Assembly (NCBI RefSeq): GCF_000819845.1
Contig: NZ_CDCG01000004.1
Coordinates: 1 to 64,000 of the forward strand
Direction of reading: 5' to 3'
From: Aeromonas enteropelogenes
GTDB lineage: Bacteria > Pseudomonadota > Gammaproteobacteria > Enterobacterales > Aeromonadaceae
DNA length: 64,000 bases
Under the pieces are notes generated by a model. It ran no database searches. It was given only the letters and a program-made list of their open reading frames with translations, and was not told the origin of the DNA. Below are positions 35,175 to 38,540 of this stretch, in pieces. Position 1 is the first letter of the stretch. The number at the start of each line of letters is the position of its first letter. A program made the position numbers and the translations under genes.

Positions 35175-36443
35175 TCAGGCCTCCAGCGCCTGATCCAGAT
35201 CTGCCAGTATGTCCTCGATCGCCTCGATCCCCACCGACAGCCGGATCATCTCAGGTTTGACCCCGGCCTTGGCCTGCTCCTCTTCGCTCAGCTGGCGATG
35301 GGTGGTGGAGGCGGGGTGACAGGCCAGCGACTTGGCGTCGCCGATGTTGACCAGACGCTTGAAGATCTTCAGTGCATCGTAGAAGCGCACGCCTGCCTCG
35401 TAGCCCTCTTTCAGGCCAAACGAGAGGATGGCCGAGGGGCGGCCGGCCATGTACTTCTCCGCCAGCAGGTAGTGGGGGTGACCCGGCAGACCGGCGTAGC
35501 TGACCCAGGCCACCTTGGGGTGATGCTTGAGGTGGTGGGCGACCTGCAGGGCGTTGTCCACATGGCGCTCCATGCGCAGGCTCAGGGTCTCCAGCCCCTG
35601 CAGCAGCAGGAAGGCGTTCATGGGGGCGAGTGCCGCACCTGTGTTGCGCAAGGGCACGGTGCGCACCCGACCGATGAAGGCCGCCGGGCCAAAGGCCTCG
35701 GTGTAGACCACCCCGTGGTAGGAGGGCTCGGGTTGGGTGAGCTGGGGAAAGCGGTCGGCGTGATCCGCCCAGGGGAACTTGCCCGAGTCGACCACTACAC
35801 CGCCCAGCGAGTTGCCGTGACCGCCGACGTATTTGGTGAGGCTGTGGACGACGATGTCGGCACCGTGCTCGATGGGTTTGCACAAGACCGGGGTGGCGAC
35901 CGTGTTGTCGACGATGAGCGGCACGCCGCGGGCGTGGGCCACCCTGGCCAGGGCGGCGATGTCGACTATGTTGCCTGCCGGATTGCCGATGCTCTCGCAA
36001 TAGACCGCCTTGGTCTTGTCGTCGATGAGGGCGGCGATGGCCTCGGCGCTGTCATCCCTGGCAAAGCGCACCTCGACCCCGAAGCTCGGCAGCATGTGGG
36101 CAAACAGGGTGTAGGTACCGCCATAGAGCTGGGGCGTGGAGACGATGTTGTCGCCGGCGGCGGTCAGCGCCTGGATGGCGTAGGTGATGGCGGCGGAACC
36201 GGCCGAAACCACCAGCGCGGCTATGCCCCCTTCCAGCGCAGCCATCCGCTGCTCCAGCACATCGTTGGTGGGATTCATGATGCGGGTGTAGATGTTGCCC
36301 GGCACCGCCAGGTTGAACAGATCCGCCCCGTGCTGGGCGCTCTCGAATTCGTAGGCCACCGTCTGGTAGATGGGCACGGCCACCGCCTTGGTGGTGGGGT
36401 CGTTGGCAAAGCCGTGGTGCAGGGCCAGGGTCGCATCTTTCAT
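35175..36443 (-). CDS. metY: O-acetylhomoserine aminocarboxypropyltransferase (sulfhydrylase)
   Basis: 422 aa, typical MetY length. It is a PLP enzyme of the Cys/Met metabolism family: GNIYTRIMNPTNDVLEQRMAALEGG, AVYCESIGNPAGNIVDI, and the PLP lysine in VVHSLTKYVGGHGNSLGG. It joins O-acetylhomoserine with sulfide to give homocysteine, or acts in related sulfur transfer. AAGGAG precedes ATG 36443. The open frame continues another 505 codons upstream, but that is only GC-rich antisense of the sgrR region. A short inverted repeat at 36479-36497 lies in its leader. Confidence 0.92.
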   Translation of the reverse strand: MKDATLALHHGFANDPTTKAVAVPIYQTVAYEFESAQHGADLFNLAVPGNIYTRIMNPTNDVLEQRMAALEGGIAALVVSAGSAAITYAIQALTAAGDNIVSTPQLYGGTYTLFAHMLPSFGVEVRFARDDSAEAIAALIDDKTKAVYCESIGNPAGNIVDIAALARVAHARGVPLIVDNTVATPVLCKPIEHGADIVVHSLTKYVGGHGNSLGGVVVDSGKFPWADHADRFPQLTQPEPSYHGVVYTEAFGPAAFIGRVRTVPLRNTGAALAPMNAFLLLQGLETLSLRMERHVDNALQVAHHLKHHPKVAWVSYAGLPGHPHYLLAEKYMAGRPSAILSFGLKEGYEAGVRFYDALKIFKRLVNIGDAKSLACHPASTTHRQLSEEEQAKAGVKPEMIRLSVGIEAIEDILADLDQALEA

Positions 36444-36478
36444 CACACACTCCTTGTTGGATGTCACCATTATGGATG

Positions 36479-36497
36479 GATAGACGTCCAATCTATC
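36479..36497. promoter_or_regulatory. Inverted repeat, possible MetJ-like box, upstream of metY
   Basis: GATAGA and TCTATC arms flank CGTCCAA. Within it AGACGTCC (36482-36489) matches seven of eight bases of the MetJ operator unit AGACGTCT; adjoining 8-mers match poorly. It could be a weak MetJ site for metY or part of an RNA structure in the sgrT transcript. Confidence 0.3.
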
Positions 36498-36550
36498 AGT
36501 CCCGTGGCCGATGTAAACAGGCAGATCTCCCGTATCTATTCCCTGCCATG

Positions 36551-36727
36551 TCAGAGGCGGCGGCGATATTCCCTGTCGTCGATCTGGTTCATGTCCCACT
36601 GCATCAGGCGATTGAGCTGGCTCATGGGATCCTCGATAAACGGCAGCGGACGGGGCAGGATCCGCTTGAAGTAACGGCGTAGGTACTGCTGGATCCGGTT
36701 CGGTTTGGGGGGGATGACCTGGTTCAT
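36551..36727 (-). CDS. sgrT: SgrT-like small protein (58 aa)
   Basis: A 58-codon ORF with a good AGGAG site 8 bases before ATG 36727, divergent from sgrR with 70 bp between. The protein has a basic N-terminal part with IQQYLRRYFKRI and a C-terminal NRLMQWDMNQIDDRE. E. coli SgrT (43 aa, encoded inside the SgrS small RNA directly divergent from sgrR) has a similar QFYQHYF start and LMQWDD end as I recall it. SgrT inhibits the glucose PTS transporter PtsG under glucose-phosphate stress. Position plus the shared LMQWD motif make this a convincing but longer homologue. It probably depends on SgrR for expression. Confidence 0.7.
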   Translation of the reverse strand: MNQVIPPKPNRIQQYLRRYFKRILPRPLPFIEDPMSQLNRLMQWDMNQIDDREYRRRL

Positions 36728-36797
36728 GATGGGGCTCCTGTGGGTTCTCTCTCATGTTCACCGGCAGTATTGAGCTAAAATGAGGAAGTAAAAACTG

Positions 36798-38540
36798 ATG
36801 ACTTATTGCAACGGGATTTCCTCTTTTATGCCGACCGGTCGCCTCTACCAGCAATTTCAACGACTCGCCCAGCAGCTTGGCTGCGATGAGCGGGAGATCA
36901 GCCTCGCCGAGGTGGCGGATCTGCTCTGCTGCACCCCGCGCAATGCCCGCCTGCTGCTGCGCCGGATGCAGGAACAGGGCTGGCTCAGCTGGTCGGCGGA
37001 GGCGGGCAGGGGACGGCGCTCCCGGCTCACCCTGCTCGACAGTCAGGAGAGTCTGACTCGCCGTCGGCTGCGGGATCTGCTCAGTCAGGGCCAACTCGCC
37101 CAGGCGGTGCGGCTGGCCGAGGATCGGCTGGATCTGCTCACCCCGCTGCTCATCGAACAGCTCGGTCAGGCCACCCGGGAGGGGCGCCAGATCCTGCGGG
37201 TGCCCTACTACCGGCCGCTGCCCCAGCTGCTGCCCACCGGCCCCATGCGCCGCTCCGAGGTGCACCTCAGTCGCCAGATCTTCAACGGCCTCACCCGGCG
37301 AAATGAGGAAAATGGGGAAATCGAGGGGGATCTGGCCCACCACTGGGAGTGCCTCGGCCCCTGCCATTGGCGCTTCTACTTGAGGCCGGCGGTGCGTTTT
37401 CACCACGGCCGCGAGCTGGCGGTGGAGGACGCGATGGAGAGCCTGCTCGCCTTGCGGGATCGCCCGCTGTTCACCCATCTGGCGCGACTGGAGAGCCCCT
37501 GGCCGCGCACCCTGGATCTGCACCTCGACAGCCCGGATCCCCTGCTGCCCCACCTGCTGGCCGAGCCGGTGGCCGTCATATTGCCGCGCGAGCTCAAGGG
37601 GGAGGCGGGGTTTGCCCTGCAGCCGGTGGGCACGGGCCCTTACAAGGTGGCTGCCAACGATCCCCTGCACCTGTGTCTGGAGGCGTTCGACGACTACTTC
37701 GGGTTGCGTGCCCTGCTCGACGAGATCGACATCTGGATGCTGCCCGAGCTGGCGGAGCGGCTGGAGAGCCACCTGCAGCTGGGGCGCGACAGCCCGGAGC
37801 TTGGCACCATGCACGGCGAGTCCGAGCTCGAGTCCGGCTGCTACTTCCTGTTGCAGGACGACAGATCCGGATCCCTGCAGGATCCTGCCCTGCGCCAGTG
37901 GCTGGCACAGCTGCTCAACCCCATCGCCCTGATGGCCCGGGTCGCCCCCGAACTGCAACGGGGCTGGACCAGCGCGCTGGGGCTTCTACCTCACTGGCGC
38001 GAGGCGCAGCCCTCGCCTCTGCCCGCGCCGTCGCGGCGACCGACGCGGCTGGTGCTGGCCTACTTTAACCAGCACCTGGAGTTCAACGAGTGTGCCAACG
38101 CCATGAGCAGCCTGCTGGCCGAGCAGGGTATCGAGCTCGAGGTGCGTACCCTGGATTACGGCCGCTGGGTGAGCGGGGCAGATGAAGACGTGGATCTCTG
38201 GCTCGGTACCCTCAACCTGGAGCATGAACATGCCTTCGCCCCCTACGCCTGGCTGCAGGGCACGCCGCTGCTGCGCAGGGTATGGGCCGGCCAGCAGGAC
38301 TTGTGGCAGGGGTTGACCCAGTGGCGTACCCGCGGCGAGGAGCCAGGCCCGCGCGCTCTGCTGGCCGAGGTGCAACGCCAGGGTTGGTTCGTGCCGCTGT
38401 TTCACCACTGGCTGGAGCTGGAGAGCCGGGTCGGGGTGCACGGAGTTCGGATGACGGCGCTCGGCTGGTTCGATTTTCGCAGCGCCTGGCTGCGGCCCGA
38501 GCTGGCAGGGCCGCCGGAGGAGGAAAATCCTCGTCAGTAG
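36798..38540 (+). CDS. sgrR: SgrR-family transcriptional activator
   Basis: 580 aa (E. coli SgrR 551). The N-terminal winged helix (LAEVADLLCCTPRNARLLLRRMQEQGWLSWSAEAGRGRRSRLTLL) is followed by a family-5 solute-binding-like domain (VPYYRPLPQLLP, RRSEVHLSRQIFNGLTRRNEENGEIEGDLAHHWE, WRFYLRPAVRFHHGREL, TALGWFDFRSAW). These phrases run parallel to E. coli SgrR, which senses sugar-phosphate stress and activates sgrS. ATG 36798 has AGGAAG at 8 bp; ATG 36828 (MPTGRLYQQF) matches the E. coli N-terminus but lacks a ribosome site. Target: the divergent sgrT-like gene. Confidence 0.9.
   Translation: MTYCNGISSFMPTGRLYQQFQRLAQQLGCDEREISLAEVADLLCCTPRNARLLLRRMQEQGWLSWSAEAGRGRRSRLTLLDSQESLTRRRLRDLLSQGQLAQAVRLAEDRLDLLTPLLIEQLGQATREGRQILRVPYYRPLPQLLPTGPMRRSEVHLSRQIFNGLTRRNEENGEIEGDLAHHWECLGPCHWRFYLRPAVRFHHGRELAVEDAMESLLALRDRPLFTHLARLESPWPRTLDLHLDSPDPLLPHLLAEPVAVILPRELKGEAGFALQPVGTGPYKVAANDPLHLCLEAFDDYFGLRALLDEIDIWMLPELAERLESHLQLGRDSPELGTMHGESELESGCYFLLQDDRSGSLQDPALRQWLAQLLNPIALMARVAPELQRGWTSALGLLPHWREAQPSPLPAPSRRPTRLVLAYFNQHLEFNECANAMSSLLAEQGIELEVRTLDYGRWVSGADEDVDLWLGTLNLEHEHAFAPYAWLQGTPLLRRVWAGQQDLWQGLTQWRTRGEEPGPRALLAEVQRQGWFVPLFHHWLELESRVGVHGVRMTALGWFDFRSAWLRPELAGPPEEENPRQ

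Follow-up and report, generated by a model that had tools for sequence, protein, structure and literature searches.

A probable SgrT mRNA that lacks a recognisable SgrS half between sgrR and metY in Aeromonas

Results

The sgrR-sgrT-metY locus of Aeromonas

SgrS/SgrT is the textbook dual-function RNA. The window, by which we mean the whole 64,000-nt stretch of Aeromonas enteropelogenes DNA that was analysed, carries between sgrR and metY a small open reading frame (ORF) that the initial annotation had read as sgrT followed by an SgrS-like seed (Table 1). This ORF (36551-36727(-)) encodes 58 aa with LMQWD inside and runs divergently from sgrR, which is an SgrR equivalog (NCBIfam NF010149, 600.5 bits, cut-off 476); metY lies 107 nt past its stop codon. 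The AGGAG site, the LMQWD motif and the divergent orientation that had been pointed out were all confirmed in the sequence, and at 58 aa against 43 aa the peptide indeed exceeds E. coli SgrT by 15 residues.

Table 1. Features of the region from metY to sgrR, with positions counted from the first letter of the window.
Feature	Position	Strand	Basis
metY, O-acetylhomoserine sulfhydrylase	35175-36443	-	TIGR01326, 653 bits (cut-off 495.1)
Tandem metboxes GGACGTCT-ATCCATCC forming the MetJ operator	36474-36489	-	PMC3228920 matrix
Seed-like stretch: metY extended -10 (TGATAGATT) and first MetJ operator bases	36488-36503	-	Promoter and metbox scans
metY -10 hexamer TAGATT	36490-36495	-	Promoter scan and conservation
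metY -35 hexamer TTTACA	36512-36517	-	Promoter scan
sgrT, 58-aa SgrT orthologue	36551-36727 (including stop codon)	-	ORF, profile and Rfam evidence
AGGAG ribosome-binding site of sgrT	36735-36739	-	Direct from sequence
Core of divergent sgrR/sgrT promoter region	36765-36797		Alignment A3, Aeromonas and enterics alike
sgrR, transcription activator, 570 aa from ATG at 36828	36828-38540	+	NCBIfam NF010149

A profile of the Aeromonas peptide, built from alignment A1 with 21 of the 30 loci then collected, found a match in 36 of the 37 Aeromonas genomes, a set that includes the genome of the window. The 58-aa form adjoins sgrR in 33 of the 37, that is, in all 30 loci of the first set and in three further genomes, and a 52-aa form does so in three more, divergent genomes. 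Across codons 9-58 of 33 sequences, the numbers of minor alleles at codon positions 1, 2 and 3 were 112, 74 and 220; these counts, like the shared-helix tests described below, used the last 59 codons, an in-frame upstream ATG having started some of the picked ORFs. Because the ORF is kept at full length in 33 of the 37 genomes and its variation is heaviest at third positions, it lies far beyond what chance would give, and it is a real gene. Conservation in other Aeromonas, whose absence would according to the initial annotation have spoken against SgrT, was thus borne out. The sole Aeromonas genome without sgrT (G006) also gave no match to metY (E 1e-100) or sgrR (E 1e-20). One of the divergent Aeromonas genomes (G009) carries two further SgrR-like matches (L195 and L196), at 31-32% identity.

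The gap between sgrR and sgrT aligns with its counterparts in E. coli and three further enterics (alignment A3, four Aeromonas and four enteric sequences), and CAATACTG, in the core of this promoter region, is found in 35 of 36 Aeromonas genomes. By analogy, the region is predicted to depend on SgrR.

The peptide is related to enteric SgrT

The SgrT family (PF15894) was the sole Pfam match of the window peptide, at 20 bits (E 0.0006, profile positions 23-46), which is short of the curated cut-off of 27 bits, and NCBIfam returned no match for it. When nine sampled Aeromonas genomes were searched with the Pfam SgrT profile, none passed the cut-off and two matched at E 0.001, the window's own genome being unmatched at that level. 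A comparison by hhalign of 21 Aeromonas sequences with seven enteric SgrT sequences gave a probability of 81.8 and an E value of 1.1e-5; the seven are those of E. coli and six genomes of one family in the order, with PtsG sequences that share 87-97% identity with the E. coli protein. Taken beyond the genus, to 197 genomes of the order, the Aeromonas profile gave 11 matches, two weak ones of which were non-Aeromonas (L146 and L147), and a search of solved structures returned two matches only, at chance level (E 0.061).

The KTPGRED linker, described in PMC3901232 as the target of SgrT on PtsG in E. coli, is present in PtsG of the window's genome and in 30 of 30 ptsG loci examined, from 37 genomes with ptsG. 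Together, sgrR synteny, genus-wide conservation, the hhalign result, the shared promoter region and the KTPGRED linker in PtsG support the assignment of the ORF as an SgrT homologue, as it had initially been annotated, and the 58-aa peptide is related to enteric SgrT.

Like E. coli SgrT (43 aa, PF15894), the Aeromonas peptide is encoded next to and divergently from sgrR, has the LMQWD core and occurs with a resident PtsG that carries KTPGRED, but it differs in its 58-aa length, with an N-terminal extension and a longer C-terminal tail past QWD. A long tail is also found in an enteric SgrT of 54 aa (L179, in genome G159), which ends in DDEYRHWL where the Aeromonas peptide has DDREYRRRL; unlike the Aeromonas gene, this one has downstream of it a seed (+23) and a poly-T tract (+68), the layout of a full SgrS. 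The tailed L179 form points to loss of the tail as the origin of the short E. coli SgrT. After this SgrT (L179:1492-1653(-)), the seed offers a 15-nt pairing (TTCTGAGTAATGGTG) that matches the altered ptsG leader of its own genome.

The seed-like stretch belongs to the metY promoter and MetJ operator

The sequence GGGACTGATAGATTGG, noted initially for its likeness to the ptsG-pairing segment of E. coli SgrS, is present at 36488-36503(-) as described, but its proposed role as a seed did not hold, the stretch being the extended -10 of metY where it abuts the MetJ operator. TTTACA-16-TAGATT, with TG before the -10 (36517-36490(-)), is the only sigma-70-like site in 36400-36860, where shuffles averaged 0.3, and the promoter pattern recurs before metY, its spacer being 15-16 nt, in all of 36 genomes. 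Scored by the PMC3228920 matrix and its thresholds, the operator is the only tandem metbox site in all 64 kb of the window (score 13.6 against 12.58), and a tandem metbox before metY passes the thresholds in 35 of 36 Aeromonas genomes. Of 36 genomes, 32 carry TGnTAGATTGGACGTCTATCC, n being A in 19, C in 11 and T in 2, a conservation around a free n that fits an extended -10 and not a pairing seed. Only the window's own genome, one of 36, has the exact letters ACTGATAGATTGG. In the three most divergent genomes, CATAAA or CATAGA takes the place of the -10 letters and the operator stays.

The resemblance of the stretch to the E. coli seed is weak. It lies at an edit distance of 4 from the quoted E. 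coli segment, a distance that is reached at 83 places on both strands of the 64-kb window (75 with the query reversed), and about 0.07 such matches are expected on one strand of the 107-nt gap.

Metboxes before metY are described for two of three Aeromonadales in PMC3228920, and the Aeromonas arrangement is like the MetJ-regulated metY promoters described there in having tandem metboxes at the metY promoter, with nothing essential that differs. Judged from its operator, metY at this locus would be repressed by MetJ. Among other genera of the order, metY was found in 8 of 13 genomes searched, and one of these eight has a tandem site upstream of it, as determined by a simple 12-of-16 count and located 116 nt before the match. 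The arrangement at this locus therefore seems peculiar to Aeromonas among the genomes examined.

Between the sgrT stop and metY, 25 of 36 genomes (L008 and L010, for example) carry a motif, GCTTTGCC, often followed by GGAT. As a rule it sits just upstream of the metY -35, and its form in the window (36518-36550) looks degenerate by eye. Its role may be that of a metY upstream element or of an RNA element.

Search for an SgrS half

In the Rfam search proposed by the initial annotation, the window scored 58.6 bits with the SgrS model (RF00534; gathering cut-off 37), and the cut-off was exceeded in 32 of 37 Aeromonas genomes. Searched alone, however, 36548-36770 gave 54.9 of the 58.6 bits, at 36562-36728, which corresponds to the ORF and one upstream base, and the part past the sgrT stop (36440-36556) had no match to the model even at E 10. 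E. coli SgrS, used as a control, scored 228.8 bits. Since nearly all of the score is due to the ORF stretch, we did not take the match as a sign of the RNA half. A match to the Rfam SgrS model can rest on the coding part, and automatic annotation of SgrS sRNAs in Aeromonas may mislead.

The initial annotation had seen no terminator before metY, and our search agreed: no terminator-like site was found in 36400-36860 (0.6 expected from shuffles), and in none of 36 genomes was there a T5 run from 30 nt before the sgrT end to metY. In all seven enteric controls, counted from the first base of the sgrT stop codon, the seed is at 22-23 nt and the poly-T tract at 58-131 nt. A review (PMC4021124) describes a Rho-independent terminator for all identified SgrS homologues, and a ptsG-complementary stretch of about 13 nt as nearly invariant. 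The gene after sgrS in E. coli is setA. The sgrT RNA of Aeromonas could conceivably have a Rho-dependent or processed 3' end.

Pairing with ptsG was examined by a complementarity score with few gaps against the ptsG leader from -35 to +15, in a set that includes the three 52-aa genomes. The power of this test is low, 25 of 500 shuffles reaching the score of the E. coli control. None of the 36 Aeromonas RNAs came out at or below 5% (lowest 14 of 200 shuffles), the window's own RNA was equalled by 86 of 200 shuffles, and the complementarity of the seed-like stretch to the resident ptsG leader was matched by 280 of 1000. RNAduplex energies were dropped, as the E. coli pair itself was reached by 150 of 300 shuffles.

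Shared-helix tests were run on alignments of 33 of the 36 genomes, the three 52-aa genomes being left out. In the enteric control, helices of at least 7 were shared by five of seven genomes, which was reached by 90 of 200 shuffles and is not significant, and with helices of at least 6 the best pair was poly-T with an A-tract (166 of 200 shuffles). By this same measure, the best shared helix of at least 7 after the sgrT stop occurred in 5 of 33 Aeromonas genomes, with 88 of 100 shuffles equal. With the ORF included, the helix UCUGAGUG/CAUUCAGG over the sgrT stop, which covers part of the ptsG ribosome-binding region, was common to 20 of 33 (15 of 100 column shuffles). In a longer RNA that took in the metY leader, the metY ribosome-binding region gave a GU-rich 7-bp helix with the ptsG leader in 30 of 33 (2 of 100 shuffles); the two preceding results come from a run in which the RNA was ended two bases past the -10, so that this metY-leader helix was left out. 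The letters involved are the GU-rich GAGTGTGTG (36444-36452, in the metY leader) and, as their possible partner, GCGCAC-like letters in the ptsG leader; the pairing probably arises by chance from low-complexity letters.

A search for a ptsG-pairing RNA elsewhere in the genome gave 98 sites with at most three mismatches, against 16 for a control pattern. The nine sites with at most two mismatches were inspected; one of them is ptsG itself, and no other has a T5 run within 100 nt, as this one does. All nine are overlapped, on one or the other strand, by stop-to-stop frames 280 to 635 codons long, such frames not being proof of genes.

As far as these low-power computations go, complementarity to the resident ptsG leader is not above chance, and the pairing check that the initial annotation had suggested came out against an SgrS role. 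The pairing negatives are weak, the enteric control itself not being significant, and the lack of a terminator and of the conserved stretch weighs more heavily against SgrS.

Discussion

We consider it probable that the Aeromonas locus gives rise to an SgrR-controlled mRNA for SgrT that has no recognisable SgrS half and extends up to or into MetJ-controlled metY. Of the combined SgrS/SgrT reading with which the analysis began, the SgrT half holds and the SgrS half does not. When sugar phosphates accumulate, SgrR would activate the divergent promoter, and a short mRNA starting at about 36755-36760 would be translated into the 58-aa SgrT, which would bind the KTPGRED linker of PtsG and stop further glucose uptake; SgrR control, translation and PtsG inhibition are all proposed here by analogy. 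The lack of a recognisable ptsG-pairing seed and of a terminator of the SgrS kind suggests that the sgrT RNA would serve as a messenger rather than as an antisense RNA of the SgrS type, and we infer that it has no base-pairing function. The transcript would reach the adjacent metY promoter and may run through it.

An SgrS with its seed at 36488-36503, as first annotated, is scarcely credible and was rejected. The stretch looks like the E. coli seed and is placed after the sgrT stop, but it is occupied by the metY extended -10 and the MetJ operator, its exact letters are confined to one genome of 36, its ptsG pairing is at chance, and the seven enteric controls have their seed at a set distance of 22-23 nt from the stop codon, with poly-T following. 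A true dual-function SgrS could instead have a pairing segment that has moved and shrunk, with Rho or processing ending the RNA; in this case CGCCUCUGAGUG and its variants over the sgrT stop would pair with the ptsG ribosome-binding region. The stop-spanning helix, found at one place in 20 of 33 genomes, would fit such an RNA, as would its score of 27 in one genome (G018) against 30 for E. coli and the Rfam score over the gathering cut-off. Two other genomes (G030 and G034) reach a complementarity score of 27.5, at another ptsG site than that of G018. We regard a moved seed as distinctly unlikely all the same: the pairing is at chance level by column shuffles, across the 36 genomes and in the window's own, the post-stop letters differ among close species, with 4 of 33 using TAA or TAG, by eye the pairing is missing from the three divergent genomes, and there is no terminator.

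Two further explanations concern the neighbours of the small ORF. By read-through, sgrT and metY could form one SgrR-driven operon, in which sugar-phosphate stress would also raise homocysteine synthesis. In line with this, metY comes 85-209 nt after sgrT in every one of 36 genomes, without an intervening T5 run, and the genome G006 is without sgrR, sgrT and metY together. We hold such an operon to be rather unlikely, since metY has promoter and operator sequences of its own, a transcript from sgrT could be stopped by a MetJ roadblock or by Rho, G006 is a single genome in about 310 contigs, and metY occurs with no sgrR match in four genomes from a different genus of the family. It is very improbable that the ORF encodes an unrelated peptide that stands beside sgrR by coincidence. 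The Pfam score under the cut-off and the lack of an NCBIfam match would agree with coincidence, but against it stand the hhalign E value, the Rfam bits that come out of the ORF stretch, the QWD core as in E. coli SgrT and the C-terminal tail resembling that of the L179 SgrT.

The SgrT mRNA that we favour shares with E. coli SgrS (RF00534) its position, a similar promoter region and the encoding of SgrT; unlike E. coli SgrS, no ptsG-pairing seed and no Rho-independent terminator were found in Aeromonas. Yersinia SgrS, described in PMC4021124 as an RNA without the SgrT peptide, is likewise one half only of the dual-function locus, but the opposite one, Aeromonas keeping the peptide with an RNA part that is not recognisable. 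A peptide without the RNA in a genus would complement the RNA without the peptide in Yersinia. A fuller claim would be that Aeromonas has an SgrT-only locus, with a peptide-only, SgrR-driven mRNA, perhaps the state that preceded the conversion of its 3' end into SgrS in enterics, and that the transcript runs on into metY, tying sugar-phosphate stress to methionine synthesis; taken as a whole, this is unlikely. With an SgrT-only genus, one could test which of the two halves is the older and whether the peptide suffices by itself to cope with glucose-phosphate stress. Horler and Vanderpool are said to have surveyed SgrS homologues in many genera in 2009, and an SgrT-only locus may already be partly in print in that survey; in the literature searched on SgrS, SgrT and sgrR in Aeromonas, which lay apart from the survey, we found no paper on such a locus.

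Three other EIIC transporters of the window's genome (L031, L032 and L033) carry KTPGRED, KTPGREI and KTPGREE motifs. Given these KTPGRE-type motifs, SgrT might act beyond PtsG.
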